Source of the DNA: a virus
Length of the DNA: 36,480 nucleotides
Reading direction: 5' to 3' (one strand)
Virus record (IMG/VR): IMGVR_UViG_3300035703_000234
Span: 1 to 36,480 of that record
Part shown: positions 7,701 through 33,578 of the stretch, one piece after another
Layout of the letters: the number at the start of each line of letters is the position of its first letter
Numbering within the stretch: the stretch's first letter is position 1
Made by a program: the position numbers and the translations under genes
Notes under the pieces: model-generated
Told to the model about the DNA's origin: nothing
What the model saw: the letters and a program-made list of their open reading frames with translations, nothing else
The model's database searches: none

Positions 7701-9584
7701 ACGAATAGCATAACGTGGTCCAGCCAAGGTAAGGAATGACCAGGCTGATGTGACCGCTTCTCCAGCCTTAGAGTTTCCAAGACCAAGGGTAAGTTTGTAA
7801 AGTGTGCTTTTAGCAGTAAGGGAATCAAGATCAGATACTGTTGGGGCGGTAACAACCGTATTCATCTCACTAGGAAGCAACGGCTTGTCAGCGAACTCAT
7901 CTGTTGCATTAAGAGAGAACTTTGTTTTTCCACGTGAGGATAGTACGCGTGTGACCGTGTTTCCCGTTACGTCTGTATTTACTCCACGAAAGTCAGCAAT
8001 CTGCTTCCATAGGCCAAGCCAAAGGTCATACCTCTTGCCAACGGAATCTAGACCGTCAAAAGTTTCAGCGATAAGACGAGCCTCTCGGGTTGGAAACACC
8101 AAGATAGCAGTCCTGTAGATTTTATCGTATGCGTCATTACCCATAAGGTCAAATGATTCGTTACGAAACATTGGGATAGGGGAAAGTTTACGCTTAGCGG
8201 CATCAATGTTAGCGATGATCTTTGCTGTAGAGAACCTAGCAAACTTTCCACGAGGTCCATCCTTGAGCATATCTACGATTTTGGTAGAGTCTTCGTCAGT
8301 GACGAGTTTAAGGATTCCGTCGTCTGTCGCTGGTGCGCCAAAGAAAGCGTCGTCTACAAGTTTAGGTCCCACTTTATCAAAACTAAAGACACGATTTGTG
8401 GCTGTAAGAGTTGTGATGCGAGCCTTGCGAGCCATATCTAATCTCGGCATAATGACTCTGTTGCGACCTACAGCACCTGTAAAGGTGGTAAATACATCCT
8501 TGGTATTAAGGAAGAAGCCCTTAGCGGTTTGTGCGTCAACAACATCAGACTTGTCAAACATCTTGACTACTGCTGGGCCGAACTCTGGGGCGAGTACGCG
8601 CATCTGCCTACGTGCTTCTGCCGCAGCCTCTTTGTTTCCAGCCTTGTTAGCGTCGCGGAACTTTTTAAGTTCATCACCGTATCGGTTCCAAAAAGCCTGA
8701 GTAGTTTCTAGATTGAAGTAATCATCTAGTTTTGTGCCAGCCTTTTTAGCGTCACCAAGAAGTACATCAAGAGAATACTTGCGTAGGTCGTTAGCCCTTT
8801 TTACTTTACCAGCGACGAGGAAAGGATCCGTCCTAAAGCGATATAGAGCGTCTACTGCACCAGATGTTAGTTTGTAGAAGAAACCGTTTTCATAGAAATC
8901 ACCAGGAGTGACAGCATCAACAATGTTGGCAACCCAGCGTCCAGGTGAGTACTTGGCTGCGTTGACTGCTGAGATGGTGTCATCAAACAAATCTCTTGCA
9001 GCATCAAGCGTGCGAGGGTCGTTGATTCCATCAACCTGCTGGATATTCTTATCTGCTATCTTGAGGTAGTAGGCTTCCTCTGGAGTAGCAGTTGCCATAA
9101 TCTCTTCAGGTGTCTCACCCGAGGATATACGCATAGCGACATTGACCGCAGCGTTACCGTACTTCTGACGCGCTTTGGCAATGCGGTTGTCGTTAAACTT
9201 CTTTTCGCCGTCTTTGCCTGACTCATTCCAAGCATCAACAATGTTGCGGTCTTCTTCAACCGCTATCTGAGCCGCACGTGGGATGCGGGTCATAAAGTCA
9301 GATACTGCTGTAAGACCCTTGAAGGCTTGATATCCAGTGTAGTGCCAAGCAGTGCCTAGCCATCCACGATTCGGCTTTTCTTCTGGAGACTCTTCACCAA
9401 AGTTCTTGCGAAGATCCTTCTGTTGTTCTACTGGAAGTCTGCTTGCAGCATCGGTAGCAACAGTAGCAGGAAGACTAAGTAACCTCTTGTGTGTCGCTAA
9501 AGCCTTGGAAAGAGATTCGACTTTCTTTCTCTCTTCAGGCGATAACCCTGCTGCCGCAGCCATTGCGTCATATTCGCCTGCCAT
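4716..9584 (-). CDS. Giant internal virion (ejection) protein candidate, 1622 aa
   Basis: The largest gene of the window, taking 13% of it. Mostly alpha-helical with many short amphipathic stretches; residues about 620-670 include a semi-hydrophobic segment (AWSFLTLAGPRYAIRNAGED), followed by a coiled coil (AEYEELAEQIVKDKDALFSL). A mid-to-late region (VAFSTRNFARFYRAQEDFYR) and a hydrophobic Pro-rich stretch with ALPISLLENLVNVF may contact membrane. I see no lysozyme, transglycosylase or protease signature. Size and place between portal and scaffold match the giant inner proteins of podoviruses (T7 gp16-like in role, not by homology). It overlaps the stop of the 131-aa gene by one base. Confidence 0.65.
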   Translation of the reverse strand: MAGEYDAMAAAAGLSPEERKKVESLSKALATHKRLLSLPATVATDAASRLPVEQQKDLRKNFGEESPEEKPNRGWLGTAWHYTGYQAFKGLTAVSDFMTRIPRAAQIAVEEDRNIVDAWNESGKDGEKKFNDNRIAKARQKYGNAAVNVAMRISSGETPEEIMATATPEEAYYLKIADKNIQQVDGINDPRTLDAARDLFDDTISAVNAAKYSPGRWVANIVDAVTPGDFYENGFFYKLTSGAVDALYRFRTDPFLVAGKVKRANDLRKYSLDVLLGDAKKAGTKLDDYFNLETTQAFWNRYGDELKKFRDANKAGNKEAAAEARRQMRVLAPEFGPAVVKMFDKSDVVDAQTAKGFFLNTKDVFTTFTGAVGRNRVIMPRLDMARKARITTLTATNRVFSFDKVGPKLVDDAFFGAPATDDGILKLVTDEDSTKIVDMLKDGPRGKFARFSTAKIIANIDAAKRKLSPIPMFRNESFDLMGNDAYDKIYRTAILVFPTREARLIAETFDGLDSVGKRYDLWLGLWKQIADFRGVNTDVTGNTVTRVLSSRGKTKFSLNATDEFADKPLLPSEMNTVVTAPTVSDLDSLTAKSTLYKLTLGLGNSKAGEAVTSAWSFLTLAGPRYAIRNAGEDLMINLAIGKSPWGLVKERMISTRINTAVKPLQGVSGLEKWANNPLGIALRIANKKESAKYLAEYEELAEQIVKDKDALFSLKEELTITKSPTKRTQLQNQIDELETKMEGGLVEQTRKVLARALTEGRVNRLLNKMGLNPLTKEEVDLLSDQVVFGDIENLFSTVSEGGFNFASGADYIESQMDLVKATGARMGELRLDLGSARNKYAAAAGVRGFRGIGVTTENEASLVAYLLRVSFYANDELGAVAIANLADDVTGDAAGVQKVFDWLNTDKGQKLLKEARIASDELIDQREYARLVYERAKAIFTKRVDGKLNMELLDKVRRLDAQTGEYKVTGNISLDDLPTGPNADEFLPNAVVGPELVPIADAGNQTASLMKNGWVWLGLSNARFSRQPLALYEIVDIRKQMRSSGFEEAFIANFTKGIDPSDAKALNAATRNAKKELAKLVEERAINNVLSYVDNPLVRTQVAFSTRNFARFYRAQEDFYRRLYRLVRYNPEAIQRLALTFDGVAHSGWIQEDDRGELYFVYPHFTPAYKAIQGVMTALGVEQDFKVPFPVQFGGAVKMLTPSLNPDSILPSFAGPAAALPISLLENLVNVFQPGMGDNITRMTLGKYAVDSDIVSRLLPAHLNRAIAAMDQNERNSQYASAYRKAVTYLEASGNGIPKKLDDQGNLIPPTAGELEDYRQKVRSTTLGILATRFVYGFFAPASPSTQLKSDMAEWIRDAGRANWKQAWNALRQQYGGDYEKAMQRWVELYPNLVPYTVTESDRKTVAFFGYAEESNKFVTENTALFEKYPEAAAFLIPHKGAFSFDAYKTMTDMGLLRNKRVEDYLRDVQTASDLQVYYEKRNEYENSLTTAFNDTARTIIRQQFNNWRTQFLAGRPLVGEALAGSAERAVKRINALDDLEKMLNDKDFSNVRRDTQNVLREMLNTYQNYQKQKDIYASTGGSQEILDAIKVSSLNRIKELAKFDENTQAAFDSLFGRLLDD

Positions 9585-10367: not shown

Positions 10368-12107
10368 TTAAGCGCCGCCGATTGAGGCGAGCAGTGTTGC
10401 GATATCGGGACGAGTAGCACCAGCAGGGGCTGCGCCGCCAGGGGTTTCTGGAGATGGCTGCGAGGCAGGGGCGGGAGCCGCACCTGCTGGTGACATTTGT
10501 TCTGGGGCCATCATCTCTGGGGCAGGCTGCTCTTCTGGAGCAAATGCCTTCTCTACGATAGTTTCTATCTGGAGGCCCTTTTGCCGCCCTTTGATAACCT
10601 CAGCAATTCTGCCAATGATTTGAGTAGGGTCTTGTCCTTGCGCTGCAAGAGCAGGGATAGCCTGGGCATACTGAGATAAAGCAACACGCAAAGAATCACG
10701 CATCTCTTCAATGTCAACCCGTTGTTCTTCTTGTGTGACATTTAACTCCATAGGTATTTCTCGACGGACATAATCTCGTGAAACGAGTTTGTCGCTACGC
10801 ATCTGGAGAAGTGCGATGATAGCGCGGTTAGGATCCATACCAGACATAATGCCGTAACGGACATCTACGCCGTATTCACCCTTGATATCGCGGGATGGAA
10901 TGTACTTCATTGTGTATGGAGTACCGTCATCTACGCCTTTGATTTCTTTGACCATAGAGCCAAAGACTTTCTCGTCTACCTCAAAGCAGGCAGCAACAAG
11001 ATCAGTAAAGAGACGTGCGAATTGTGCTTGAGCGGAACGAACCTGTGTATCAAATCCAGCCTGAAGCGCTTGGACTCCACGACCTGTGATGATGGACGCA
11101 TCAAGGTTACCGCTGCGTACTTCTGGATAGCGAGCGCCAAGACGAAGTTCGCGCTCTAGAACACCAGACTCTGTAAAGACACCTGGAGGAAGTTCTAGCG
11201 GTACTCGCCTAATTGCTTGGGGATTAGCGGATCGCATAATAGCATCAGGGCCAAGAGCAAGTTCTTGGACATCCTGCGGAATAGCGATAGGCGCTTGGAT
11301 GCTTTTCTCTGCTGCTTGGATCTGCAAGACAGCGAAACGCGCACGTGCCAACTGCACCGCTAGAACATCATCAAACTGGCCTCGTGCTTCGCCATCGATA
11401 GAGGAGCGAACGGCTACACGTGCCAGACACTTGCCAACGGGGTTGGGGGTGTTGGCAAGAATCAAGTTGTTGCGTTCAGGTAGGAAGATTAGATCCTGGT
11501 CCTTGTCGTGATATCGAATCACTGACAGATAAGGACTACCTTGCTGCGTATAATCCCTCTTGAGGATTTGAGAGGCAAACTCTGGGTATTGGGCAGCGAG
11601 GGTCTCTGCATCTGTGGCAAGGACCTGGACGAGTGAAATGGTTCTACCGAATCTGTCGATTTCTGGGTAGACACCAAATGGGTTAAGCAAGCGGATACGA
11701 GGAGAGTTTGTCTCGTAATCCATCTCTACGATTCCTGGAAGCATACCGTAGGTGTTGAACCAGTCAGCACCTGTGTACATCTGAATCTGCAGTTCGCTTG
11801 CTGCTACGTAATAGTTAGCGATGCGAGTGCGGGTATCTGCCGCTTTGCGAGCAGAGTCTGAAACCATATTGGTTGCAGAGCAGTTGAATGAAGGAAGCGG
11901 AGCCATTACCTCAGCAAGGTCGCGGGCAGCGACGTCGATGAAGTTGGCTACGAGAGGCTTTGGATAATCCTCTGAGAACATTGAAGGGTAGACACGAGAG
12001 ATGTCTCCCTGACGTACAGATAGGACATCGCGCATACGTTGATCACGCGCCGCGTACCTAGTCTGTAGACGAGCAGCCTTGGCTGCTACTTCCTTCACTG
12101 ATAACAT
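10368..12107 (-). CDS. Portal protein, 579 aa
   Basis: Dodecameric ring at the packaging vertex through which DNA enters and leaves. Features that suit a portal: helical N-terminus (LSVKEVAAKAARLQTRYAAR), an early VANFIDVAARDLAEVMAPLP segment typical of wing-region starts, a mixed alpha/beta middle with NPFGVYPEIDRFGRTISLVQ, and a long helical stem region with the GVQALQAGFDTQVRSAQ pattern. The last 65 residues are Pro/Ala/Gln-rich and probably disordered. The order terminase, mini protein, portal supports the call. Length is in the usual range for podovirus and siphovirus portals. Confidence 0.85.
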   Translation of the reverse strand: MLSVKEVAAKAARLQTRYAARDQRMRDVLSVRQGDISRVYPSMFSEDYPKPLVANFIDVAARDLAEVMAPLPSFNCSATNMVSDSARKAADTRTRIANYYVAASELQIQMYTGADWFNTYGMLPGIVEMDYETNSPRIRLLNPFGVYPEIDRFGRTISLVQVLATDAETLAAQYPEFASQILKRDYTQQGSPYLSVIRYHDKDQDLIFLPERNNLILANTPNPVGKCLARVAVRSSIDGEARGQFDDVLAVQLARARFAVLQIQAAEKSIQAPIAIPQDVQELALGPDAIMRSANPQAIRRVPLELPPGVFTESGVLERELRLGARYPEVRSGNLDASIITGRGVQALQAGFDTQVRSAQAQFARLFTDLVAACFEVDEKVFGSMVKEIKGVDDGTPYTMKYIPSRDIKGEYGVDVRYGIMSGMDPNRAIIALLQMRSDKLVSRDYVRREIPMELNVTQEEQRVDIEEMRDSLRVALSQYAQAIPALAAQGQDPTQIIGRIAEVIKGRQKGLQIETIVEKAFAPEEQPAPEMMAPEQMSPAGAAPAPASQPSPETPGGAAPAGATRPDIATLLASIGGA

Positions 12108-17119: not shown

Positions 17120-17253
17120 TGAGTTGCTCAACCTGCTACGAGAAGGGCTACTACCTGCTGATTGCGAATGAGGGGGAGGACTACGAGATAGTCCTTTGCG
17201 ATTGCCAAGCGACGAAGGAAAGGGAGGGTAATCGTGGCTCACAAGAACTGTAA
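17119..17253 (+). CDS. Mini zinc-ribbon-like protein, 44 aa
   Basis: MSCSTCYEKGYYLLIANEGE followed by VLCDCQATK: CxxC plus CxC, spaced as in a degenerate zinc ribbon. Start and stop overlap both neighbours, the downstream overlap being 20 bp. Probably a metal-stabilised mini domain of unknown role. Confidence 0.5.
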   Translation: MSCSTCYEKGYYLLIANEGEDYEIVLCDCQATKEREGNRGSQEL

Positions 17254-17341
17254 TCTCAACGAAGAATGGTGCGAATGGTGTTCAGTTGAGAGCATTGTAT
17301 GTGTGGAAGAATCGTGCGACATATGTAAGGAGGGAGAGTAA
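17234..17341 (+). CDS. Cysteine-rich mini protein, 35 aa
   Basis: GTG start 20 bp inside the previous gene, after GGGAGGG. Sequence AHKNCNLNEEWCEWCSVESI then VCVEESCDICK: six cysteines in 35 residues with two CxxC pairs. High Cys content and gene coupling support it as real. Metal-binding mini protein of unknown role. Confidence 0.5.
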   Translation: MAHKNCNLNEEWCEWCSVESIVCVEESCDICKEGE

Positions 17342-17472
17342 TGGCTCTCTGTAATGTGTGCGATATGCGCATTGATACTGATTTAATGGTGAAGCACTAC
17401 GCACTATGCGACAATGATCTAGTGGGCGGAAGTTCCGTACCCTATGGAATGGAAGGGGAAGAGGATGAGTGA
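17341..17472 (+). CDS. Mini CxxC/HxxxxC protein, 43 aa
   Basis: MALCNVCDMRIDTDLMVKHY then ALCDNDL: a CxxC followed by His and Cys, plausible as a treble-clef or zinc-finger mini domain. TAATG overlap at the start. Ends in an acidic tail. Unknown function. Confidence 0.5.
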   Translation: MALCNVCDMRIDTDLMVKHYALCDNDLVGGSSVPYGMEGEEDE

Positions 17473-17611
17473 GAAGCAAACACCAGAAGTGGGGCGCATC
17501 ATCAAGACAAGGAAGGTGCTGACCTACATAATGACCGACCTTGGGGGAACCTTTGTACAGAAGGAGGTAACGGAAGATGAGTACAACGAACTTCTACGTA
17601 GTGAGGGATAG
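17465..17611 (+). CDS. Hypothetical early protein, 48 aa
   Basis: Starts at an ATG 8 bp inside the previous gene (after GAAGGGGAAGAGG). MSEKQTPEVGRIIKTRKVLT, then a beta-like IMTDLGGTFVQKEVTEDEY stretch. Overlaps the next gene by 35 bp, larger than the other overlaps in this chain. Unknown function. Confidence 0.45.
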   Translation: MSEKQTPEVGRIIKTRKVLTYIMTDLGGTFVQKEVTEDEYNELLRSEG

Positions 17612-17810
17612 CAAGGGGGAAGAGATTTACCAAGGAGAATCTGCCCGTGATGCGGTGATGGATTTCCGTCGCAACATCTCCGCTAGAATGTACATCTCGG
17701 TTTGGCAGATACAAGATGAAGACCTCTATCAGGTCATCGAGCCTATTGATATTACCCCCGTCATATTACAGACTATTGTTTCAGTAACAGGAGGAGCCAA
17801 TGGAAAATGA
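17577..17810 (+). CDS. Hypothetical early protein, 77 aa
   Basis: Start after AAGGAGGTAACGGAAG. Sequence FYVVRDSKGEEIYQGESARD and a MYISVWQIQDEDLYQVIEPI segment suggest a small alpha/beta fold; the last part is more hydrophobic (ITPVILQTIVSVTGGANGK). Overlaps both neighbours. Unknown function. Confidence 0.55.
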   Translation: MSTTNFYVVRDSKGEEIYQGESARDAVMDFRRNISARMYISVWQIQDEDLYQVIEPIDITPVILQTIVSVTGGANGK

Positions 17811-18358: not shown

Positions 18359-18374
18359 GGAGGAGATGTGCTAA
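18084..18374 (+). CDS. Overlapping frame inside the transglycosylase gene, 96 aa, uncertain
   Basis: Starts with an ATGA overlap to the 95-aa gene and ends in the methyltransferase start region, so its edges fit the operon style. Its C-terminal half looks like an ordered helix (SLNDLVKIVDDLVSKYLEVS, then DTLITATEALVKRGRSG). It lies over the conserved catalytic part of the transglycosylase in a different frame, so it could be an accidental frame. I recognise no family for it. Confidence 0.3.
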   Translation: MKTDASPRLTLVQGGAGEIENGSASTTFGLPNLDLTTLPTTPIHLRTESLNDLVKIVDDLVSKYLEVSDTLITATEALVKRGRSGSATTTIKEEMC

Positions 18375-19114
18375 CAGGAGTATCACTCTTTGCTGGTATC
18401 GGTGGCTTTGACCTTGCTATGGAACGCAACGGAGTTAAGGTAGTAGCCACAGTTGAGATAGACAAGAAGTGCAATGAGGTGCTGGCGCAGCACTTCCCAT
18501 TTGCCCAACAGTTTACGGATGTTAAAGAAGTTACAGGAAAGGACTTTATCAATGCTGGATTCAACCCCGAACGAGGTATCATCACTGGAGGATTTCCCTG
18601 CCAAGACTTATCAGTGGCTGGGAAACGCGCTGGTCTCGCTGGCGAGAGAAGCGGATTATTCTGGGAAATTAGAAGACTTGTGGAAGAAACGAAAACAGAA
18701 TGGTTCGTCCTCGAGAACGTCCCTGGTTTACTATCCTCTAACGGAGGGAAGGACTTTGGAATCGTTCTCAGGGAAATGGCCAACCTCGGGTATAGTGTCG
18801 GATGGCGCGTCCTTGATGCTCAGCACTTTGGAGTACCCCAGCGCAGGCGCAGAGTCTTCATCGTTGGCAACCGTTCTTCAGACGGAGGACGTATCAACAA
18901 AGTATTATTTGAGCGCGAAGGCGTGCGAAGGAATCCTCAGGCGAGCAGACCGCAGGGGGAAGGTGTTACCAGAAACACTCAGGGAAGCACTAGAAAAGCA
19001 GTCCTTGGCTCAGGAAAAGATATAGCAAATACTATTCCTGCTGAGTTATACCATCACGGATCAGTTGTAAATCAAGATGCTAATAATGGCCACGTTGTAG
19101 TGGAGCAAGGATGA
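18368..19114 (+). CDS. dcm: DNA cytosine-C5 methyltransferase, N-terminal part, 248 aa (frame broken)
   Basis: Transfers methyl from SAM to C5 of cytosine. GTG start at 18368 after AAGGAGGAG. Motif I SLFAGIGGFDLAM (6-18), motif IV GGFPCQDLS with catalytic Cys78, motif VI ENVPG (116-120), motif VIII QRRRR (158-162). The target-recognition region follows, then the frame ends at a TGA (19112-19114) well before motifs IX and X. Those are found in another frame (19167-19595). A second protein-like frame (18552-19025) covers this part. Likely role: protecting phage DNA from host restriction, or a base-modification step. Functional only if the two frame breaks are assembly errors or are bypassed. 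Confidence 0.85.
   Translation: MLTGVSLFAGIGGFDLAMERNGVKVVATVEIDKKCNEVLAQHFPFAQQFTDVKEVTGKDFINAGFNPERGIITGGFPCQDLSVAGKRAGLAGERSGLFWEIRRLVEETKTEWFVLENVPGLLSSNGGKDFGIVLREMANLGYSVGWRVLDAQHFGVPQRRRRVFIVGNRSSDGGRINKVLFEREGVRRNPQASRPQGEGVTRNTQGSTRKAVLGSGKDIANTIPAELYHHGSVVNQDANNGHVVVEQG
18552..19025 (+). CDS. Protein-like frame overprinted on the methyltransferase, 157 aa
   Basis: Lies wholly inside the methyltransferase gene in another frame. Start at 18552 is preceded by AGGAAAGG. Sequence features: VSSLEDFPAKTYQWLGNALV near the start, SGKWPTSGIVSDGASLMLST in the middle, KYYLSAKACEGILRRADRRG followed by a GKVLPETLREALEKQ helix near the end. I recall very similar segments (SLEDFPA, WP-SG, KYYLSA-A--GILRRA) from phage proteins annotated next to methyltransferases, so this frame looks real. 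The DNA for TGGFPCQD in one frame is the DNA for SLEDFPAK in the other. Function unknown. Needs conservation testing. Confidence 0.5.
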   Translation: MLDSTPNEVSSLEDFPAKTYQWLGNALVSLAREADYSGKLEDLWKKRKQNGSSSRTSLVYYPLTEGRTLESFSGKWPTSGIVSDGASLMLSTLEYPSAGAESSSLATVLQTEDVSTKYYLSAKACEGILRRADRRGKVLPETLREALEKQSLAQEKI

Positions 19115-19595
19115 AGGTGATTGTAATGAGGCAACGTGAAGGCAAGCCAGGGGGGGTAAAGGACCTTTGTTAAGCGAAGACAAAAGCCTGACCATAGCAA
19201 CGGCCAATGATCAGACGCTCTTTATATTCCACGCCCATCGATCAGATGGGGTAAGGCTGCAAGGGAAGACAGTGAATACATTGACTGCATATATGGGGAC
19301 AGGAGGACTCAATACTCCGATGCTTGCCTTTAGCCATACACAAGGTCTGGATATTCAGGCCAGTGAAGAAGCAAGTCCAACACTAAGGAGAGAGGGTGGA
19401 GGTATGGCAGCGCTCACTGAATCAGTTGTCCGTAAGTTAATGCCCGTAGAATGTGAAAGGCTTCAAGGTTTTCCCGATGGCTGGACTGCTAGTCAGTCCG
19501 ACACCAATAGATATAAGCAGCTAGGAAACGCAGTCGCTGTGCCTGTCGTTGAATGGCTTATCAAGGGTATATGTGATACAGTAGAGGAACGCTGA
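19111..19595 (+). pseudogene. dcm: DNA cytosine-C5 methyltransferase, C-terminal part in two further frames
   Basis: Continues the methyltransferase after the first stop. Segment 19111-19173 carries MKVIVMRQREGKPGG and then hits TAA; after a run of seven G (19150-19156) the next frame, open from there to 19595, carries GKGPLLSEDKSLTIATANDQ, later VVRKLMPVECERLQGFPDGW and KQLGNAVAVPVVEWL, the expected motifs IX and X. Both changes are minus-one in direction (frames 2 to 1 to 0). Without them the enzyme lacks motif X. The cause may be sequence errors, phase variation at the G-run, true decay, or programmed slippage. The annotated C-terminal fragment as a separate start would be TTG at 19167. 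Confidence 0.75.
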
Positions 19596-21078: not shown

Positions 21079-21487
21079 TAGGCAGGTCTGGCCAGTTCTT
21101 ATCGAGTACCATAATTGCAATGGCACTGTAGTTCAGTAGGTCTACGAAGGAATCTCTGAGTGATTCGTTGCTCGGCTTAACTCCGCTATCAAGGAGGTTA
21201 TTGATGCGAGCAACCTTGTCCCACATCCGCACTCGCAGTCCATTGAGGGGACCGCCTGGAGAATGAGCGACGTTCTTTGGACCGTAATCGTGATGTTTGC
21301 GTAGGAGCAAGTTCCCTGCGGTGTCGAACACTCGCCACATATCTGAGACGAACTTGACATCTAATGCTTTACTGGGATCGGCTTCACCGTCAAGGTCCCA
21401 GCCTTGTAGTCTATCGAGAGTACGATCATCCCCATACCCATCAACAATTCTGCCACTTCCTGCAACTCCCGCTTGGTTGTCACTCAC
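21065..21487 (-). CDS. DUF1599 / nucleotide-modification-associated domain 1-like protein, 140 aa
   Basis: The middle, VSDMWRVFDTAGNLLLRKHH then DYGPKNVAHSPGGPLNGLRV and WDKVARINNLL, then ESLRDSFVDLLNYSAIAIMV, matches the DUF1599 (Nmad1) pattern: a helical bundle with conserved His, Asp and a KxxRI segment. Published comparative work predicted such domains to act with base-modification enzymes; some related helical bundles are nucleotide pyrophosphatases. Here it sits with a glycosyltransferase and a cytosine methyltransferase in the same phage. The first 40 residues are disordered and acidic. Confidence 0.7.
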   Translation of the reverse strand: MSDNQAGVAGSGRIVDGYGDDRTLDRLQGWDLDGEADPSKALDVKFVSDMWRVFDTAGNLLLRKHHDYGPKNVAHSPGGPLNGLRVRMWDKVARINNLLDSGVKPSNESLRDSFVDLLNYSAIAIMVLDKNWPDLPNDAR

Positions 21488-22128
21488 TTCGCTCCTCCAA
21501 ATAGTTTACGTAGTTCTTCTGGTCCGTTGGCAAGATAGTATTCATTGATGTCCGTATTAGGAGGTAATGTTACTATTACACCATTGGTCAATTCTGATTG
21601 GACACGCCGAGCGAACTCAGCGCCTGGGTTTGACCCGTCCTCTTTCACATCGTTATCCCCGACGATATACACAGTGTCATAGCCTGTGAATAACTTACTA
21701 AAGTGTGGCTTCCACGAGACAACACCAGGTATACCCACTGCTGGGATACCTACGATGCCCGATAGAATGACTGCATCTAACTCACCCTCACAGACCACGA
21801 TAAATGGTGACTGAATGAGGATGTCTGTCACGTTATATGGATGTGCCTTCTGTCCTACTGGTTGTCCATACTTAGGCTTGCCATCATCAATGCGACGGAA
21901 CTTCACTGATACACAGTGACCCATCGCAGTAATGTATGGAATCGATAGCCACCCTGCGTACTCTTGATGACCCTCAGCAGGATCAATCACAGTACCAAGC
22001 GACATCGACTGCGCTACATCCTTAGATATACCACGTCCTTCGAGATACGCTACGGTTGCGTCGTCGATGTGTTGACTGTACCGCGTTACCGTTTCCAGCA
22101 ATGATCTCGTCTGCACGGCTGACTGCAT
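21484..22128 (-). CDS. DNA primase, TOPRIM part, 214 aa
   Basis: Makes RNA primers together with the zinc-finger subunit. FIVVCEGELDAVILSG carries the TOPRIM glutamate (E114) and YIVGDNDV the DxD (158 and 160). VKFRRIDDGKPKYGQPVGQK upstream resembles the RNA-polymerase-like part of bacterial primases. PPNTDINEYYLANGPEEL closes it as in DnaG-like phage primases. Overlaps the zinc-finger gene by 107 bp in a different frame; a weak ribosome site precedes the start. Confidence 0.82.
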   Translation of the reverse strand: MQSAVQTRSLLETVTRYSQHIDDATVAYLEGRGISKDVAQSMSLGTVIDPAEGHQEYAGWLSIPYITAMGHCVSVKFRRIDDGKPKYGQPVGQKAHPYNVTDILIQSPFIVVCEGELDAVILSGIVGIPAVGIPGVVSWKPHFSKLFTGYDTVYIVGDNDVKEDGSNPGAEFARRVQSELTNGVIVTLPPNTDINEYYLANGPEELRKLFGGAK

Positions 22129-22411
22129 CTTTATACCCCAACCCTTCTTTCTCCATAATAATATCTACTGCTGTCCCACCTTTACCGCAGGTGTGGCAGA
22201 AGTACAGGTTCTCGTAGGTGTCAATCACTGCACTCCGTCGACTGTCGTCGTGGATGCAACACCTCACCGAGACGTTCTTTCCCATCTTAACCTCGCCACC
22301 AAAGAAGGCGACGACATCTGCTATGGGGATTGTGTTCGATGCAGACTTACCTTTTCGCCCTTTCGAGCGAACCACCCTGTTCCAGTCTGATGTTGACACT
22401 CGCACCCCCAA
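22022..22411 (-). CDS. DNA primase, CHC2-type zinc-finger part, 129 aa
   Basis: Template-binding part of a two-gene primase. IPIADVVAFFGGEVKMGKN leads into VSVRCCIHDDSRRSAVIDTY and NLYFCHTCGKGGTAVDIIM: Cys51/52, His54, Cys72 and Cys75 fit a CHC2 zinc finger, followed by the helical EGLGYKDAVSRADEIIAG. The basic tail RRRNRSVSRRTWYI is a common ending of stand-alone versions in actinobacterial phages, which argues against a sequencing frameshift. It overlaps the TOPRIM gene downstream and the small CxxC gene upstream. Confidence 0.8.
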   Translation of the reverse strand: MGVRVSTSDWNRVVRSKGRKGKSASNTIPIADVVAFFGGEVKMGKNVSVRCCIHDDSRRSAVIDTYENLYFCHTCGKGGTAVDIIMEKEGLGYKDAVSRADEIIAGNGNAVQSTHRRRNRSVSRRTWYI

Positions 22412-22541: not shown

Positions 22542-22901
22542 TCACCCTGTGGTGTTGGCATTGTTAACCCAACTTTCTAATGACTGAACTACCCAGGCTT
22601 TCTGGATAGGCGCACCTCTACGTTTGACTATGACGAAGGCTGGAGGTACGGGGGCAAGTCCTCTAGCCTTCGCATAGTTCTCGGCCTCCACCTGCGCTTC
22701 GCTCCAGAAGGCAGGCAGATCAATCTTCTTACGGTTCTTTAACTCCAGAATGTACGTCTGACCTGCGACGATGCAGACTAGATCGCCTTCATCATTGGCT
22801 CCAGCCTTGGCAAGACGCTCGACAAAGTGACCAAGCGAGCGCAGATATTTCATCACATCAGTCTCGAACTTAGTTCCCTTGGTCTTATTGTAGGTTGACA
22901 C
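22542..22901 (-). CDS. Hjc-like Holliday-junction resolvase / PD-(D/E)XK nuclease, 119 aa
   Basis: KGTKFETDVMKYLRSLGHFV (Glu13), then ERLAKAGANDEGDL (Asp40), then YILELKNRKKIDLPAFW (E53-x-K55) is the archaeal Hjc-type order E, D, ExK. The WSEAQVEAENYAKARGLAP segment matches the following helix. It would resolve branched DNA made during replication and before packaging. It starts 17 bp inside the end of the glycosyltransferase gene. Confidence 0.78.
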   Translation of the reverse strand: MSTYNKTKGTKFETDVMKYLRSLGHFVERLAKAGANDEGDLVCIVAGQTYILELKNRKKIDLPAFWSEAQVEAENYAKARGLAPVPPAFVIVKRRGAPIQKAWVVQSLESWVNNANTTG

Positions 22902-23580
22902 CTAACGCCTCCTTCACTCGCAGTACATCATCAACGTAGTTCTTTTTGACGTACTTCTCAAAGGACTTGCGATCCTTGAGGTAGCGCTCTTTAGAGTTGG
23001 CTTCAATATAAACCTTGTCCTTATCTGCCTTCCCGTTGATGAAGTGCAGATGCTCCCAGTACACACTTGGAAAGTAGTAGTAAGCGCCCAAGCCCTTGCC
23101 TAGTACTTGCCAGAAGTTGTCAGCGTAGAGGTGCTTTAGTTGTGGTGGAGCCATAAAGCCAAGCGCCTTGACCACATTGGTAGTTATCATCACCGAGGTT
23201 GGAAGGTCTTGTCCCTGCAACATATCGTTGCCGTAGGCAACACCGTATCCTTGCTTGGCTAGAGTGATGGACATAGCCACATCCCAGCCCTCAGTTGTGA
23301 CGATGTTGTCATCACCTAAGAATGTAAAGAACAGGTAGTCATCAACATACTTCATCGCAATCCTGTTGAGAGTTGCGATCATATATTCTCGTGGACCAAC
23401 CTCATACTTCACACCTTCAAGGCGTGGGTAGTTATGCTCATCATCCTCATCAAGACCTAGCACGATATCAGATACCTTGCTATGTTCCTTGAGATATTTG
23501 ACAGCCCGCTCAGCGTTCTCTGGCCTACCTCTGGTAGGTATGATAACAAGGTTAGCGTTGTTGTTGTTCATACTTCGCAT
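22885..23580 (-). CDS. GT-A-fold glycosyltransferase-like protein, 231 aa
   Basis: Transfers a sugar from a nucleotide donor. LVIIPTRGRPENAERAVKYL is the typical N-terminal nucleotide-binding turn, and FTFLGDDNIVTTEGWDVAM carries the DxD-type metal motif (GDDN, 89-92). LYADNFWQVLGKGLGAYYYF may be the acceptor loop. No membrane segment, so it acts in the cytoplasm on DNA, protein or small molecules. ATG at 23571 is an alternative start. Lying among replication genes rather than tail genes, a role in DNA base glycosylation is possible. Confidence 0.78.
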   Translation of the reverse strand: MRSMNNNNANLVIIPTRGRPENAERAVKYLKEHSKVSDIVLGLDEDDEHNYPRLEGVKYEVGPREYMIATLNRIAMKYVDDYLFFTFLGDDNIVTTEGWDVAMSITLAKQGYGVAYGNDMLQGQDLPTSVMITTNVVKALGFMAPPQLKHLYADNFWQVLGKGLGAYYYFPSVYWEHLHFINGKADKDKVYIEANSKERYLKDRKSFEKYVKKNYVDDVLRVKEALGVNLQ

Positions 23581-24424
23581 CCCTGTAGTACATCCTGCCC
23601 ATCTCGCTCGTTACAGAATCTATCTGACACGAAGCAAAGTTTACCGAGAAGGTTGCCCATTCGCTTCCATTTGCGGTGTGTTTCCCAAAGCGATTCTTAA
23701 CCGCTGCAACACGCAATGTCTTGTTCGACGGGTCATAGCCCAAGGTGCAGATCATTGCTGGCAACTGAGATACCTTGCCGTGAATAGCCCGACGTGGTGG
23801 TGGCATCTCAGGTGAGCCATACTCGCTGGCTTCTGAGACGTGATGCAGTACCATCACACAGGCTTCAGTCTTACGAGCCATATCGTGGAGTTCAGCCATA
23901 ATCGCACGAAGCCCTGCCCATTCGTTATCTGTTTCAGAGACAACGTTCATCAGGTTATCGATGACGATTAACTGTGGCATCTCACCATACAGTTCTAGGT
24001 ATGCCTTGACTTCCATCTCGATATCATCAAGACTCGGAGATGAATCAAAGACCCACTGAATGTGGTCAGCCTTCTCCATCGCTGCGTCGTAATAACTAGG
24101 CGATCTTTCTAGGTTCTGCTCAACAGTTAACTGCGAGTGACCAGAGACAGCGGCTGCTGTCCTTATCATCACAGTAGCAGTGTCGGTATCAGCCGAGAAG
24201 AACAGGGTAGGTATGCCAGCCTTGATCGAGTAGACCAAGGCCAGCATAGATTTACCTGCGTTTGGTGCGGCTGCGACCATACACACTTGACCACGACGGA
24301 ACCTAATGTCCTGGCTCGTGAGTTCTTTCCAGACTTCAGGTAGTGGAGTTGCCTTGGTAGTTACTGTCCCCCAAGCGCGGGAAAGTTTTAGCAAGAAACA
24401 CCTCCACTGGAATAGTCTCGACAA
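23552..24424 (-). CDS. RecA/DnaB-type ATPase, likely replicative helicase, 290 aa
   Basis: Unwinds DNA at the fork. Walker A AAPNAGKSM (52-60), Walker B LIVIDN (152-157), then VMVLHHVSEAS (motif 3 region with paired His) and a late VAAVKNRFGKHTAN segment with the basic finger expected in DnaB-like RecA domains. It lacks the DnaB N-terminal helical domain, as is common in short phage helicases. The start is uncertain: ATG at 24424 overlaps WhiB by 89 bp; a later TTG would shorten the overlap. Confidence 0.82.
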   Translation of the reverse strand: MSRLFQWRCFLLKLSRAWGTVTTKATPLPEVWKELTSQDIRFRRGQVCMVAAAPNAGKSMLALVYSIKAGIPTLFFSADTDTATVMIRTAAAVSGHSQLTVEQNLERSPSYYDAAMEKADHIQWVFDSSPSLDDIEMEVKAYLELYGEMPQLIVIDNLMNVVSETDNEWAGLRAIMAELHDMARKTEACVMVLHHVSEASEYGSPEMPPPRRAIHGKVSQLPAMICTLGYDPSNKTLRVAAVKNRFGKHTANGSEWATFSVNFASCQIDSVTSEMGRMYYRDAKYEQQQR

Positions 24425-24650
24425 TAATGTTTCGTCGACGACGTATCGTGCGCCTCTCGTACTCTGAAAGACCGCCCCATACCCCGTGACGTTCGTGCTT
24501 TAAGCCCCATTCAGCACACTCAACTTGATGCTCACAACTCCCGCAGATGGCCTTAATCTGTTTGCCTAGATTATGGCCACCTTCTGGGAAGAAGATTTCT
24601 GGATCTGTTTGAGCGCAGAGAGGGTTCTCAAAACTTTGAGGCCCCCTCAC
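24336..24650 (-). CDS. WhiB-like iron-sulfur transcription regulator, 104 aa
   Basis: WhiB-family proteins bind a 4Fe-4S cluster and contact the sigma factor of actinobacterial RNA polymerase. Cys12, then CGSCEHQVEC (Cys36, 39, 45) are the four ligands, and the GVWGGLS turn followed by the basic ERRTIRRRRN segment is diagnostic. The start is GTG at 24650. Family members occur only in Actinobacteria and their phages, which fixes the host phylum. It may redirect host polymerase, alone or with the phage sigma factor. Confidence 0.9.
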   Translation of the reverse strand: MRGPQSFENPLCAQTDPEIFFPEGGHNLGKQIKAICGSCEHQVECAEWGLKHERHGVWGGLSEYERRTIRRRRNIIVETIPVEVFLAKTFPRLGDSNYQGNSTT

Positions 24651-25044: not shown

Positions 25045-25989
25045 TTATTTTCCTCCAGTAATTGGTTTAATTGAAAGCCTTACGCTTTCCTTTCCTTGCT
25101 TTGTCGGCACGTACCCCAGCGCTTTCTCCACTGCTTCCTTGTCGACGGTATTAGTTTGCACTGTACTCCATCGGATGTCAATACCCGAATGAGTCAGACC
25201 TGTAACTCCAGAGAATGTATCTCTGAGTGCTTCTTTCTGTGCCTCAAGTTCCTTGATCTTGTTGTCAATCTGAAGATACTCAAGGGCTTTCAAATCTACA
25301 TCAGGGTTATCTATGATCGGCTGTTCAGTTTTTGTACGTTCTTTTTTTAGACCAACGCATCCCATCTCCCCTGAGGCGTCGTAGAACCTACAATAGAACT
25401 TGCAATAAGATTCATCTCGCTCTGGTTCTGGGGCAACGTCGGAGGCTTTGATGGCTTCTAACCAACTCAATGCCTCCAACGCTACCTTCTCATCATACGG
25501 TTCTGAGTGGACTTTAATGTCCCGCTCATCACCATCACGAGCGATGGCTACGAGATTGACCCGACTGACCTTCCCCTTGCCAGACTTCTCAATCAAGTAG
25601 CCATACGTTTGTACCTGCCAGCGCTGTTGCTGACTAGGAAAGTAAGAAAGGTTCTTCACCTTGGTTGTCTTCCAGTCGACTACATCCCCAGTCTCTGGGA
25701 TGAAGAGATCGACGTGGGCTTTCATACCACCATACTCGACGGTGGTTTCAATCATCAAATCCTTATTGCTCGACAGAGCCTGCTCGATAACTCCGTGAAT
25801 AGCAGTACCCATAATGGCTGCTAGTTTGAGTTCGTTCTCGTTGGTCTCTGGCTGGTTGTTCAACCGATACCAGACCTTACGACGGCAACCGCCTAACTCA
25901 GACGGTCCAATCTGGACCTGAGTACTGCGTGGCCGTGAGTTCTCTACATCGTGTAGAGCCTTGACTAATAACGCCTTGATGTCTTCCAT
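25045..25989 (-). CDS. Cas4/RecB-like PD-(D/E)XK exonuclease with Fe-S-type cysteines, 314 aa
   Basis: PSELGGCRRKVWYRL gives Cys35; IMGTAIHGVIEQ gives His65; HVDLF Asp94; VVDWKTTK the D105-x-K107 core; QVQTYGYL the QxxxY motif. Three further Cys (SYCKFYCRFYDASGEMGC; 196, 200, 211) complete the four-cysteine cluster typical of Cas4 and AddB-type nucleases. A helical C-terminal domain (QIDNKIKELEAQKEALRD) follows. No CRISPR array is nearby, so a role in phage recombination or host DNA degradation is more likely than spacer acquisition. Confidence 0.82.
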   Translation of the reverse strand: MEDIKALLVKALHDVENSRPRSTQVQIGPSELGGCRRKVWYRLNNQPETNENELKLAAIMGTAIHGVIEQALSSNKDLMIETTVEYGGMKAHVDLFIPETGDVVDWKTTKVKNLSYFPSQQQRWQVQTYGYLIEKSGKGKVSRVNLVAIARDGDERDIKVHSEPYDEKVALEALSWLEAIKASDVAPEPERDESYCKFYCRFYDASGEMGCVGLKKERTKTEQPIIDNPDVDLKALEYLQIDNKIKELEAQKEALRDTFSGVTGLTHSGIDIRWSTVQTNTVDKEAVEKALGYVPTKQGKESVRLSIKPITGGK

Positions 25990-26174
25990 ACTGATCCGCT
26001 CCTCCAGCGAGTAATTGTAACATTAAAAAACAAGAAGTTCAAACTCAGGCTGTCTGCCAAGATAGCCGTGTAGTAGTCGTTGTACTCCTGATATCTGTCG
26101 AAGCCCAGTGCAAAGTTACGAAGGCTAGACCTACTGATGTAGATGCTATATGGGTCTGGATGCCACGCTTTCAT
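25965..26174 (-). CDS. Hypothetical protein, 69 aa, uncertain
   Basis: Fills the 186-bp space between the proteasome-like gene and the Cas4-like gene. MKAWHPDPYSIYISRSSLRN then FALGFDRYQEYNDYYTAILA look protein-like, but the last 20 residues are less so and the frame overlaps the start of the nuclease gene by 25 bp. A weak AGAGGAA site precedes the start. No family recognised. Confidence 0.45.
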   Translation of the reverse strand: MKAWHPDPYSIYISRSSLRNFALGFDRYQEYNDYYTAILADSLSLNFLFFNVTITRWRSGSVWKTSRRY

Positions 26175-26175
26175 A

Positions 26176-26745
26176 TCAGTTCCTCTCTTGGATTACTAAC
26201 TGTACGGGTAGCCCAGTATTAACGTCAAGCACCGACGCGATCTCAACTGCGCGTTTCGCTATTGACTCAGCCCGTGTGAACGGGATAGAAGTTCCCTTGA
26301 CCTGTGAGTAGAGATAACCCAGCGCGAATTGCCCACCAGTTCCTAGCGCGTATGCTCCGAACTGAGACTGGAAGAACGACAGGTCGCAAGCCACGTGAAA
26401 GAGGTTCCCGTTGAAGGCCAGCAGGTAGTCAAACCCTGAGTCTTTATCCTTGGCTGCGTCAACAGGGTCATAGTTATTATCCTTGAACGCCTGAATGATC
26501 GACGGGATAACCTTTCTACCCATAAAGACAATCGGGTCATCACCATACTTCGGGACTGGTGGTCTCCAGTTGTAGGTTAGGATATCTCCAGGGCGCGTAT
26601 CGCCCGTGATACCCAACAGATACTTCCCGACGGAGACTATCTTCGGAGTCGATACAGATATCGAGCGGAGATTATCTTCGGTGATTTGGCTATCGGCAGC
26701 AAGGACTACCATCAGTCCAGTCTGGATTCCTACTAGCGTTGTCAT
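26176..26745 (-). CDS. Proteasome-beta / HslV-like Ntn hydrolase, 189 aa
   Basis: Threonine protease fold. After loss of Met the protein would begin TTLVGI, exposing the catalytic Thr1 without a propeptide. VVLAADSQITE supplies Asp17, STPKIVSV supplies a Lys at the Lys33 position, LLGITGDTRPGD matches the Gly47 turn, LGTGGQFALGYLYS matches the Ser129 loop, and VLDVNTGLPV the Asp166 region. Length is normal for a beta subunit. No alpha subunit, ATPase or Pup gene is in the window. It is the first gene of the leftward replication operon. It may assemble alone, join or poison the host proteasome, or be a Ntn enzyme with another substrate. Confidence 0.85.
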   Translation of the reverse strand: MTTLVGIQTGLMVVLAADSQITEDNLRSISVSTPKIVSVGKYLLGITGDTRPGDILTYNWRPPVPKYGDDPIVFMGRKVIPSIIQAFKDNNYDPVDAAKDKDSGFDYLLAFNGNLFHVACDLSFFQSQFGAYALGTGGQFALGYLYSQVKGTSIPFTRAESIAKRAVEIASVLDVNTGLPVQLVIQERN

Positions 26746-26770
26746 AGCCTAATGTTATCAGAGTCACGGC

Positions 26771-26808
26771 GTGTCGCCCTGCGACACTCCCATCAGGCTG
26801 AGTATAAT
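26771..26808. promoter_or_regulatory. Divergent promoter region with a palindromic operator candidate
   Basis: Between the proteasome-like gene (leftward) and the zinc-ribbon gene (rightward). GTGTCGC (26771-26777) and GCGACAC (26781-26787) form a perfect palindrome around CCT. TATAAT (26803-26808) is a perfect rightward -10; the -35 position (CTGCGA at 18 bp) lies inside the palindrome, so a bound regulator would block it. No equally clear leftward -10 was found. Confidence 0.5.
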
Positions 26809-26832
26809 ATGAGCGTAGCGAATTAACGGTAC

Positions 26833-26861
26833 GGCCCCTGACGGGGCCGAGGCCGTAGGCC
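26833..26861 (+). promoter_or_regulatory. GC-rich hairpins in the leader of the zinc-ribbon gene
   Basis: GGCCCC-TGAC-GGGGCC (26833-26848) and GGCC-GTA-GGCC (26851-26861) lie between the TATAAT and the gene start at 26900. The next 30 bases (GAGGCGACTGACCACAGGA and onward) resemble a segment at 14237-14255. These hairpins are not followed by T-runs. They may form a structured leader. Confidence 0.45.
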
Positions 26862-26899
26862 GAGAGGCGACTGACCACAGGAAGGAGCCGTGCCGAGCA

Positions 26900-27145
26900 A
26901 TGTGGTTCCGTCTACTTACCCTGCTGAAAAAGCAGGACACTCTACCACCCGTTCAGGCTGCTGACCTCAGGTCACTCGGCCCAGTCCACATCTGTTCTTG
27001 TGGCTGTGAAGTATTCAACGTGATGGCATCCTTTGAAGATTACGAACTTGTCTGGTATTTCCTTGACGCAACCTGCGTATCGTGTGGTAACATCGTTCAA
27101 GTGCCTTGCCCAGTAGATAAAACTACGAATCAAGACACACTATAA
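26900..27145 (+). CDS. Conserved zinc-ribbon protein, 81 aa
   Basis: The only rightward gene in this part. LGPVHICSCGCEVFNVMASF then DYELVWYFLDATCVSCGNIV and VPCPVDK: CxC and CxxC pairs about 30 residues apart, the zinc-ribbon layout of a small protein I recognise from actinobacterial phages. The GGAAGGAG site is rather far (about 12 bp) from the ATG. It is followed by a strong bidirectional terminator. Function unknown; its isolation with its own promoter suggests a distinct expression time. Confidence 0.75.
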   Translation: MWFRLLTLLKKQDTLPPVQAADLRSLGPVHICSCGCEVFNVMASFEDYELVWYFLDATCVSCGNIVQVPCPVDKTTNQDTL

Positions 27146-30907: not shown

Positions 30908-32287
30908 TTACTTTGCATACCTTACGATTACTAGACCAGAACCACCTGCTGCACCGTTTTGGCTTGTACCAGAGTCAGCACCACCACCACCTCCGCCACC
31001 GCCTGTGTTAGCGGTTCCTGCAGTTGGAGCAACTACTCCACCACCTGTCTTACCGCCATTACCACCACCACCTGTGCCGCCTGTGCCAGCAGCGGTTTCA
31101 TTATATGAACCGCCACCTCCACCGCCCGCACGTGATGTTGCGGTCCCTGTTATCGATGAGGAGATACCGCTACCACCGTTACCGCCACCGTTATCATTCG
31201 ATGCGCTACCGACGGCTCCAGCGCCACCACCTCCACCACCATTGAAGTTGCTACCGCCGTTAGCACCATTACCACCAGCGTAACCTTGGGTTGCTGAGGT
31301 AGTAGCAGCGCCTGCTGTCTGCGGACTTCCTCCGCCTCCGCCGCCTCCACCACCGCCAGAGCCGCCAGTGTTTGCTGCGAAGATAGTCGGATATCCACCA
31401 GCACCGCGACCACCACCAGTAGATGTGATGGTACTAAAGACAGAGTTTGATCCGTTGGACCCACCACCGCTTGTATCGCCAGCACCGCCAGCACCAACTG
31501 TAACTGTATAACCAGTATTCGCTGTTAAAGATAGTGGAGACTCTGCGCTTGAATTACCGCCAGAAGTTCCTACCGTAGTTCTATAGCCACCAGCACCGCC
31601 TCCACCTGCAGAGGAGAAGTTGTTATGGCCATAACCTCCACCGCCACCGCCAGCAATAACAAGGTAGTCACAGGTTAGATTCTGCAACGGAGTGAAAGTA
31701 CCGCTCGAAGTAAACAGGTGATAGACGTGAGTGTCTGTGTCATACACCATTCCACCAGTCGCCTTGATTTGGGCAGTAGTGCGGGAGATGCCATACAAGG
31801 TGGCTGTGGAGTACTGGTTGAATGTACCACTGAATGGATAAATTGTTACCCTATTTATTGCTGCTGAGTTTGACCATAATCCAGCCGTCAAATAAGAGAA
31901 TGTATTAGTAGCATTTGTCTCAGCAGATGAATCAATAGATAGTGATTTATTGTTAGATGATGTGTAGTTTGGTACATATATTGAAGAACTTGAGAATGTT
32001 GATGCTGTTGAATTGGCGGCGTTTGTTACAAGAGGAGGAAAAGTAGAACCACTTGTACTCGACGCAGTGCTGCCATCACCAGCAAGAACTCTATAGGAGT
32101 ATCCAGTAGTAGAGTTGTTGAACTTTACATAGGCTTCTGTATCAACAGACGCTCTTGAGCAACGAAGGCTGGTTACTATATAAAGGTCGGTATAGGTTGC
32201 AGGAATATTTTGAAAGTCAATTTCAGCAGCCCCACCACTACCAACAGTGACGGTCTCAATCTTGACCATTGTGCCATTAAGTGCCAT
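30908..32287 (-). CDS. Glycine-rich tail adhesin, 459 aa
   Basis: Probable host-binding fibre tip. The N-terminal domain (about 1-170) holds IDFQNIPATYTDLYIVTSLR and later YRVLAGDGS, shared with the next two upstream genes. A linker with GGMVYDTDTHVYHLFTSSGT leads to CDYLVIAGGGGGGYG and a long Gly/Ser/Ala-rich domain with GAGGYRTTVGTSGGN, ending SGLVIVRYAK. Such polyglycine domains are seen in phage tip adhesins. The Gly run on this strand gives spurious Pro-rich frames on the other strand. Confidence 0.78.
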   Translation of the reverse strand: MALNGTMVKIETVTVGSGGAAEIDFQNIPATYTDLYIVTSLRCSRASVDTEAYVKFNNSTTGYSYRVLAGDGSTASSTSGSTFPPLVTNAANSTASTFSSSSIYVPNYTSSNNKSLSIDSSAETNATNTFSYLTAGLWSNSAAINRVTIYPFSGTFNQYSTATLYGISRTTAQIKATGGMVYDTDTHVYHLFTSSGTFTPLQNLTCDYLVIAGGGGGGYGHNNFSSAGGGGAGGYRTTVGTSGGNSSAESPLSLTANTGYTVTVGAGGAGDTSGGGSNGSNSVFSTITSTGGGRGAGGYPTIFAANTGGSGGGGGGGGGGSPQTAGAATTSATQGYAGGNGANGGSNFNGGGGGGAGAVGSASNDNGGGNGGSGISSSITGTATSRAGGGGGGSYNETAAGTGGTGGGGNGGKTGGGVVAPTAGTANTGGGGGGGGADSGTSQNGAAGGSGLVIVRYAK

Positions 32288-32300
32288 TAGTTATTCTCCC

Positions 32301-33578
32301 TTAGACCGCACTGTATCGAACAACGACAATGCCTGAGCCGCCGTTACCAGAACTTGTTACCTGGCTTCCGCCGTTGCCACCATTACCAGTGTTTGCAGTT
32401 CCAGAAGCATTAGAACTTCCACCGTCTTTATCGTTACCGCTTCCACCGACTGCTCGTGTTACTGAAGTTCCAGTAATAGAAGATGCAAGGCCAGCACCAC
32501 CGACTCCGATGGATGAGTTAGAGACAGCGTTACCGCCTACTGCCCCTGCTCCTCCGCCACCGCCGCCTCGGTTGCCAGCACCTTGCCCACCGTTAAATCC
32601 TTGACCAGTGGTTCCTGTTCCAAATGTGTTGGTATCACGCGCACCACCGCCGCCAGAACCACCGTTCTTTCCAGCAATAGTTCCGATAGAACTTGAGAAC
32701 GAAGCGCCTCCGCCTCCACCAGTTGAGGTTATCGTGGCAAAAACAGAGTTGCTACCAGAGTTTCCAGCAAGAGTTGGGGTAGATGATCCACCAATACCTG
32801 CTCCTCCAGCACCAACGGTAACTGTATAGTTTGTTCCAGATATAAGGTTAAGCGCAGATTCTGCAGAAGAGTTACCTCCTGAAGTTCCTACAGTCGTCCT
32901 ATAACCTCCAGCGCCACCGCCTGCTGGGTCATATCCGACACCACCAGAACCGCCACCTGCTACGACGAGATAGTCACAGGACAGGTTGCTCATTGGAGCA
33001 AAGATGCCAGATGATCGGTAGATGTGATACCAGTAGGTTCCATCTGTGCGTACTTCATCCCCACCAAATGCCTTCGGTGAGCCAGCGCCGATGCCATAGA
33101 GGGTGAAGGTGGAGCCTGAAACATAATCATATCCACCAGCAGTTAAATCAATCTGTGTAATTGCTGCTGTGTTTCTCCATAAACCAACAGTCGCAACAAC
33201 TCTTTGTCCTGCGTTATTGTGTCTGCAAAGAACAGTCTTATTGGTTGTTGTATTTGCATAATTCATAAAATGAATTATTGTCGGAGTGTAGGTACTGGTT
33301 GATACTGGTCCTATATCGCCACCAAGCGATAAAGAAGTTTGGTTTGAGAATCTAGCCGATTGTGCAGCAGATCCAGTTCCAGTTATTGTGGTTACGGAAT
33401 AATTTGAGCCACTGTCACCATTCAGTCTTACAGTTAAGTCTCCACCAAATGTTGCTCTTGTTCCTTGAGAGGAAACGACCATAATAAGATCTGTGTAGGT
33501 TTGTGGAATACCAGTAAAGGTAACAGTGGTAGCATTAGCAGAAAGAGTCTGGCTGGATATAGGGGTGTATGTCGACAT
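32301..33578 (-). CDS. Glycine-rich tail adhesin, paralogue, 425 aa
   Basis: Same architecture as the neighbouring 459-aa gene: N-terminal domain with TFTGIPQTYTDLIMVVSSQG, linker with DGTYWYHIYRSSGIFAPMSN, CDYLVVAGGGSGGVG start of the Gly-rich domain, GAGGYRTTVGTSGGNSSAES shared almost exactly, and a SGIVVVRYSAV end. The start overlaps the upstream stop as TAATG. Two paralogues may give alternative or mixed receptor-binding tips. Confidence 0.78.
   Translation of the reverse strand: MSTYTPISSQTLSANATTVTFTGIPQTYTDLIMVVSSQGTRATFGGDLTVRLNGDSGSNYSVTTITGTGSAAQSARFSNQTSLSLGGDIGPVSTSTYTPTIIHFMNYANTTTNKTVLCRHNNAGQRVVATVGLWRNTAAITQIDLTAGGYDYVSGSTFTLYGIGAGSPKAFGGDEVRTDGTYWYHIYRSSGIFAPMSNLSCDYLVVAGGGSGGVGYDPAGGGAGGYRTTVGTSGGNSSAESALNLISGTNYTVTVGAGGAGIGGSSTPTLAGNSGSNSVFATITSTGGGGGASFSSSIGTIAGKNGGSGGGGARDTNTFGTGTTGQGFNGGQGAGNRGGGGGGAGAVGGNAVSNSSIGVGGAGLASSITGTSVTRAVGGSGNDKDGGSSNASGTANTGNGGNGGSQVTSSGNGGSGIVVVRYSAV

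Follow-up and report, generated by a model that had tools for sequence, protein, structure and literature searches.

What does a small phage gain from a lone gene for a proteasome-like protease? The gene lies in a viral stretch of 36,480 nucleotides (IMG/VR record IMGVR_UViG_3300035703_000234, hereafter the window), where an initial annotation had seen a proteasome-beta-like protease with an exposed catalytic threonine. The coordinates given there are exact, stop codon included; the strand, which had been left unstated, is minus (Table 1). The ORF is an intact single frame whose product starts with MTTLVGI and carries no propeptide. With the methionine removed, Thr1, Asp17, Lys34 and Gly47 (the oxyanion-hole glycine, ORF Gly48) are all present, as are a G-T/S-G-G loop at ORF residues 135-138 and an LDVNTG motif that holds mature Asp173 and Thr176 (ORF Asp174 and Thr177), by motif the counterparts of Asp166 and Ser169. 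All the motifs first read from the sequence were thus found in the ORF. The Pfam Proteasome family (PF00227) matches the peptidase with 26.1 bits against a gathering score of 22.4, and PHROG 1040, labelled 'peptidase HslV family' in PHROGs, does so with an E-value of 1.2e-22. An AlphaFold2 monomer model reached a mean pLDDT of 89 and a pTM of 0.85. Taken with the invariant residues described below, these results put membership in the PF00227 Ntn-hydrolase family, and not in another Ntn family, far beyond chance, and the proposed beta-like fold with a catalytic threonine holds.

Table 1. Coordinates of the peptidase gene and of the features discussed with it (positions in the window).
Feature	Position	Strand	Remarks
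Proteasome-like Ntn threonine peptidase (predicted)	26176..26745	-	189 aa; Thr2 (mature Thr1), Asp18, Lys35, Gly48
Divergent intergenic region	26746..26899		conserved; inverted repeats, TATAAT-like box
orf81, small protein with CxC/CxxC pairs	26900..27145	+	zinc-ribbon-like by eye; divergent neighbour in 79/80 relatives
69-aa ORF directly downstream of the peptidase	25965..26174	-	present in 60/80 relatives
PD-(D/E)XK / Cas4-like exonuclease	25045..25989	-	next conserved downstream gene, 79/80 relatives
WhiB-like regulator	24336..24650	-	E 1.8e-17; actinobacterial-host marker
Portal protein	10368..12107	-	51% identical to PHROG 104 portal

Which member of the family this is proved harder to read from similarity scores. 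The NCBIfam models of archaeal PsmB and HslV match the peptidase far under their equivalog cut-offs (for HslV, 22.4 versus 137 bits and 19.1 versus 157.75 bits). A PDB search with the single sequence gave BPH as the only clear relative, and a profile built from 52 viral relatives matched BPH and HslV (both near 5e-10) better than eukaryotic beta5 (near 2e-6); no PrcB chain is named among its best 60 matches. The profile alignment sets ORF residue 2 on BPH Thr1 and Gly48 on BPH Gly50, the oxyanion-hole glycine of that protein (PMC5777263). The best structural match to the model found by VIA-align was again BPH (5ovt; Z 20.1, rmsd 2.7, 173 residues, 27% identity). Z values lie at 19-20 for chains of 20S beta and HslV and at 18.9 for M. 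tuberculosis PrcB (3mi0); as hits less than 1 Z apart count as equal, structure alone does not pick among BPH, 20S beta and HslV. The tree separates more. It holds 58 proteins, labelled AAH sequences not among them, and HslV, BPH, a phage clade of MTCIVGL type, the lineage of phage ct2KA10 and the lineage of the window form separate supported groups, the deep order of which these proteins do not resolve. HslV makes up its own branch (100/100), BPH groups with betaproteobacterial proteins, and the window clade stands apart (100/99). On this tree, the peptidase falls within group I on a viral branch of its own.

BPH, the nearest solved structure (5ovs, 5ovt, 5ovu), shares with the peptidase the missing propeptide and the missing unfoldase, and perhaps a long H2-S7 pore loop with acidic residues. 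The model has helices H1 (51-59), H2 (71-89), H3 (138-149) and H4 (156-173) and terminates in a strand (182-187); its H2-S7 loop of 15 residues looks elongated like that of BPH, whose loop is about three residues longer. Unlike BPH, the peptidase is viral and has a pore loop that is shorter and of mixed charge (five acidic and three basic residues in a 21-residue stretch), and its separate place on the tree rules out BPH identity. HslV (HslVU, ClpQ) has the same fold, Thr1 and G-S/T-G-G loop; that identity is ruled out by the NCBIfam cut-offs, by the tree branch and by a search of 19 records, some possibly incomplete, that met no HslU partner. Anbu was rejected on the absence of its C-terminal H5 coiled-coil helix from the model, and 20S beta or PrcB on the MTTLVGI start without propeptide and on the lack of a co-occurring alpha subunit. 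Phage proteasome homologs, termed PPH and AAH, have been described by Fuchs, Alva and Lupas (2021; PMC8665760). With these and PHROG 1040 the peptidase has in common that it is a lone gene in tailed phages, with a site of Thr1/Asp17/Lys33 type and neither propeptide nor unfoldase nearby. It is nonetheless not a PPH: those have about 140 aa and lack helix H2, whereas the peptidase has 189 aa and H1-H4. We predict a catalytically competent threonine peptidase of group I (HslV/BPH type).

The suggestion that a lone beta-like gene is unusual did not survive this comparison, since group I homologs are normally lone genes and the phage versions were published in 2021 (PMC8665760). Moreover, a scan of viral sequences confirmed at least 596 relatives of the peptidase, the best 80 of which are 63-86% identical to it. 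The gene is therefore of an already described kind, conserved and common. Remote homologs occur in 41 phage records, among them Actinomycetia phage DSL-LC01, Gordonia phage Daredevil and Microbacterium phage Pumpernickel, and also in phages of Vibrio, Aeromonas and Escherichia. An 'HslV' of an uncultured Caudovirales phage (A0A6J7XBU4) and the 'ATP-dependent protease subunit' of DSL-LC01 are viral members of the same protein family, at 26-32% identity. DSL-LC01 resembles the phages of the window's lineage in carrying WhiB, there as the gene next to its homolog, and differs from them in its genome of 129 kb and in a C-terminal tail on the homolog; our literature search returned no paper on this phage, and none on phage proteasomes beyond the 2021 survey. 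A scan of 85,000 genomes with the close-family alignment found no close prophage relative encoded in them, and a wider alignment run against the same genomes matched solely proteobacterial BPH-like and related genes. Five plasmid matches were all weak and partial.

Conservation within the window's own group was assessed in 19 sibling records, chosen by the portal gene and not by the peptidase. The virus records carry the label linear and could be incomplete pieces. All four siblings of at least 33 kb have exactly one copy of the peptidase gene, and siblings of 31.2 kb and 26 kb have one each. It is missing from a sibling of 31.0 kb and from shorter fragments, as expected if that part of the genome is absent from them. 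The dN/dS ratio of the peptidase (0.06-0.13, versus 0.11 for the replicative helicase and 0.26 for WhiB, with the neighbouring nuclease similar) points to strong purifying selection. On this sequence evidence, the peptidase is a core gene of WhiB-bearing phages of 36-41 kb, which is new here. Thr2, Asp18, Lys35 and Gly48 are unchanged in 119 of 119 distinct relatives from two phage lineages, so none of the catalytic residues first pointed out is ever lost, and position 136 is Ser or Thr in every one of the 119. Asp174 and Thr177 hold across the window's lineage, save that Ser replaces Thr in two cases; the sister lineage has Asp or Asn at position 174. Such constancy, like the low dN/dS, speaks against a catalytically dead remnant retained for structure or binding, which we regard as very improbable even though an inert relative exists: purified BPH, a tetradecameric double ring with no known unfoldase, bound epoxomicin but cleaved neither peptides nor casein in vitro (PMC5777263). 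For the same reason, an intact set of residues is no proof of a general peptidase.

The initial annotation had further linked the gene to a presumed Pup-proteasome of the host. Actinobacteria as a group often possess proteasomes, and the peptidase has the fold of PrcB, so that it might insert into, or poison, the 20S proteasome of an actinobacterial host. Little else fits, and we give this idea a very small probability. The viral profile matches beta subunits less closely than BPH and HslV; the window holds no credible Pup-like ORF with a GGE/GGQ C-terminus; no second, alpha-like proteasome gene was found in any record searched, each having one proteasome-like gene (split rows in this count are pieces of one frame); and a poison could do without the intact catalytic site that the peptidase has kept. 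In addition, relatives occur in phages of Vibrio, Aeromonas and Escherichia, hosts that generally lack a 20S proteasome. The host of the window virus is itself probably an actinobacterium because a WhiB gene is present, a gene used as a pointer to such hosts (PMC6802176).

A partner that would feed the peptidase was also sought. No AAA_2 ATPase (ClpX/HslU type) was found in 19 records, some of which may be incomplete, while all 14 control genomes gave a match; this agrees with the first impression that the gene has neither alpha subunit nor ATPase at its side. PF00004 (AAA) matches were weak and limited to the sister lineage, DSL-LC01 and its relative. Those of the sister lineage were rejected as unfoldases because their size is that of the 260-aa DnaB-like helicase, which in ct2KA10 itself matches PF00004.

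As had been noticed at the outset, the gene leads a replication operon: it heads a minus-strand run with genes for the PD-(D/E)XK nuclease, a gp49-like protein, WhiB, a DnaB-like helicase, primase and sigma region 4. Across the lineage, the order after the nuclease is gp49-like, WhiB, DnaB-like helicase, resolvase-like nuclease and primase. The neighbour counts in Table 1 refer to the best 80 of the at least 596 relatives. The 69-aa ORF is a possible partner of the peptidase, though not an obligatory one. On the other side, orf81 had no match in Pfam or PHROG, and the 154-base gap between it and the peptidase gene is strikingly conserved across relatives; it is presumably a promoter/operator region, or else an origin or RNA element. 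Its inverted repeats, GGCCCCGTCAGGGGCC and GTGTCGC..GCGACAC, lie beside the TATAAT-like box.

The reading we prefer, and to which we give about an even chance, is that of a stand-alone, ATP-independent, self-compartmentalising threonine peptidase made early in infection. Host methionine aminopeptidase would cut off Met1 and expose Thr1, as the small second residue and the lack of a propeptide suggest. Subunits may then assemble into a BPH-like homo-oligomeric ring or double ring, since the monomer model has helices H1-H4 and the long pore loop. Because no unfoldase was found, the enzyme would need no ATP, and its substrates would be polypeptides that are short, unfolded or specifically recognised. 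Made early, as the gene heads the replication operon, it could process or remove proteins of the host or the phage while the cell is being taken over. The larger phages count in favour of such an early role, for their homologs lie among PhoH, thymidylate synthase, DHFR, ribonucleotide reductase and small unknown genes, that is, among nucleotide-metabolism and other takeover genes.

A narrower role is conceivable as well, and we consider it rather unlikely, though far from negligible: a specific processing enzyme, either a protease or a connectase-like ligase, with one phage or host target such as a repressor, a nuclease or a defence protein. The lack of general activity of BPH in vitro (PMC5777263) would fit such an enzyme, connectase is a member of the family that acts as a specific ligase (PMC8665760), and orf81 and the PD-(D/E)XK nuclease are strict neighbours of the peptidase in 79 of the 80 relatives. 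However, no candidate target was found, and the model lacks the two-helix insertion between S3 and S4 that is typical of connectase. The neighbours also differ between the two phage lineages, so no single neighbour is an obligate substrate.

This second lineage is that of ct2KA10 (OX376641), a phage with WhiB that is largely colinear with the window and whose lineage has TerL, portal, scaffold-like and capsid genes homologous to those of the window. Here the peptidase gene follows directly behind the portal gene, with a gap of 58-160 bases (in ct2KA10 at 17155-17691, versus the early operon head at 26176-26745 in the window). A search for the portal gene succeeded at 81 of 88 loci, almost all from the ct2KA10 lineage. 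After the peptidase, ct2KA10 has a PHROG 8200 protein, and a 70-aa ORF takes that place in the window. The two places could result from either transposition or separate acquisition, and the tree does not decide between inheritance and acquisition. Since the two peptidases are 30% identical versus 43-53% for portal, TerL, helicase and capsid, the comparison leans towards separate acquisition or faster change.

A broad early role fits less well with the place behind the portal gene, a slot often taken by prohead proteases. The peptidase could instead serve virion assembly, as an Ntn-fold maturation protease acting in the prohead or at the portal, with its gene relocated into the early operon on the window's side. 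The portal linkage in a colinear genome would favour this, and neither the structural genes of the window nor the ct2KA10 genes tested include another recognisable prohead protease. We hold it to be improbable nevertheless: the gene has its early-operon place in 79 of 80 relatives of the window's lineage and lies among early or metabolic genes in other annotated phages, the capsid proteins do not show a delta domain at their N-terminus, and a gene of its own encodes the scaffold-like protein. Were this improbable reading true, the maturation proteases of phages would gain proteasome-type enzymes as one more structural class.

The 2021 catalogue of phage proteasome homologs assigned no function, knew no AAH in Actinobacteria-specific phages and found no informative gene context (PMC8665760). 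What is new with respect to it are the two alternative genomic places and the core, strongly constrained single-copy status of the gene in small phages abundant in metagenomes. The family of proteasome homologs is also extended to probable actinophages, which for AAH were absent from the survey. Together, the fixed neighbourhood in one lineage and the portal-linked place in its sister offer concrete positions for probing what phages use the enzyme for.

Some further observations concern the surrounding genes. Between the portal and capsid genes, the window has a 1622-aa ORF (4716-9584) that no Pfam or PHROG family matches convincingly; an ORF of 1711 aa takes this place in ct2KA10, and blastp shows no similarity between the two. 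The PD-(D/E)XK/Cas4-like nuclease of ct2KA10 (31880-32657) is seemingly shared out between two ORFs that overlap, as a frameshift would produce. The replication operon of the window includes a glycosyltransferase-like gene (22885-23580; PHROG 14945, 1.3e-53) with a homolog in just 18 of the 80 relatives, which possibly serves DNA modification. The primase is divided into overlapping ORFs (22022-22411 and 21484-22128), the CHC2 zinc finger apart from the Toprim domain. Finally, judged by eye, two plus-strand ORFs in different frames (18368-19114 and 19167-19595) resemble the two parts of one DNA cytosine-5 methyltransferase, as from a split gene or a frameshift.
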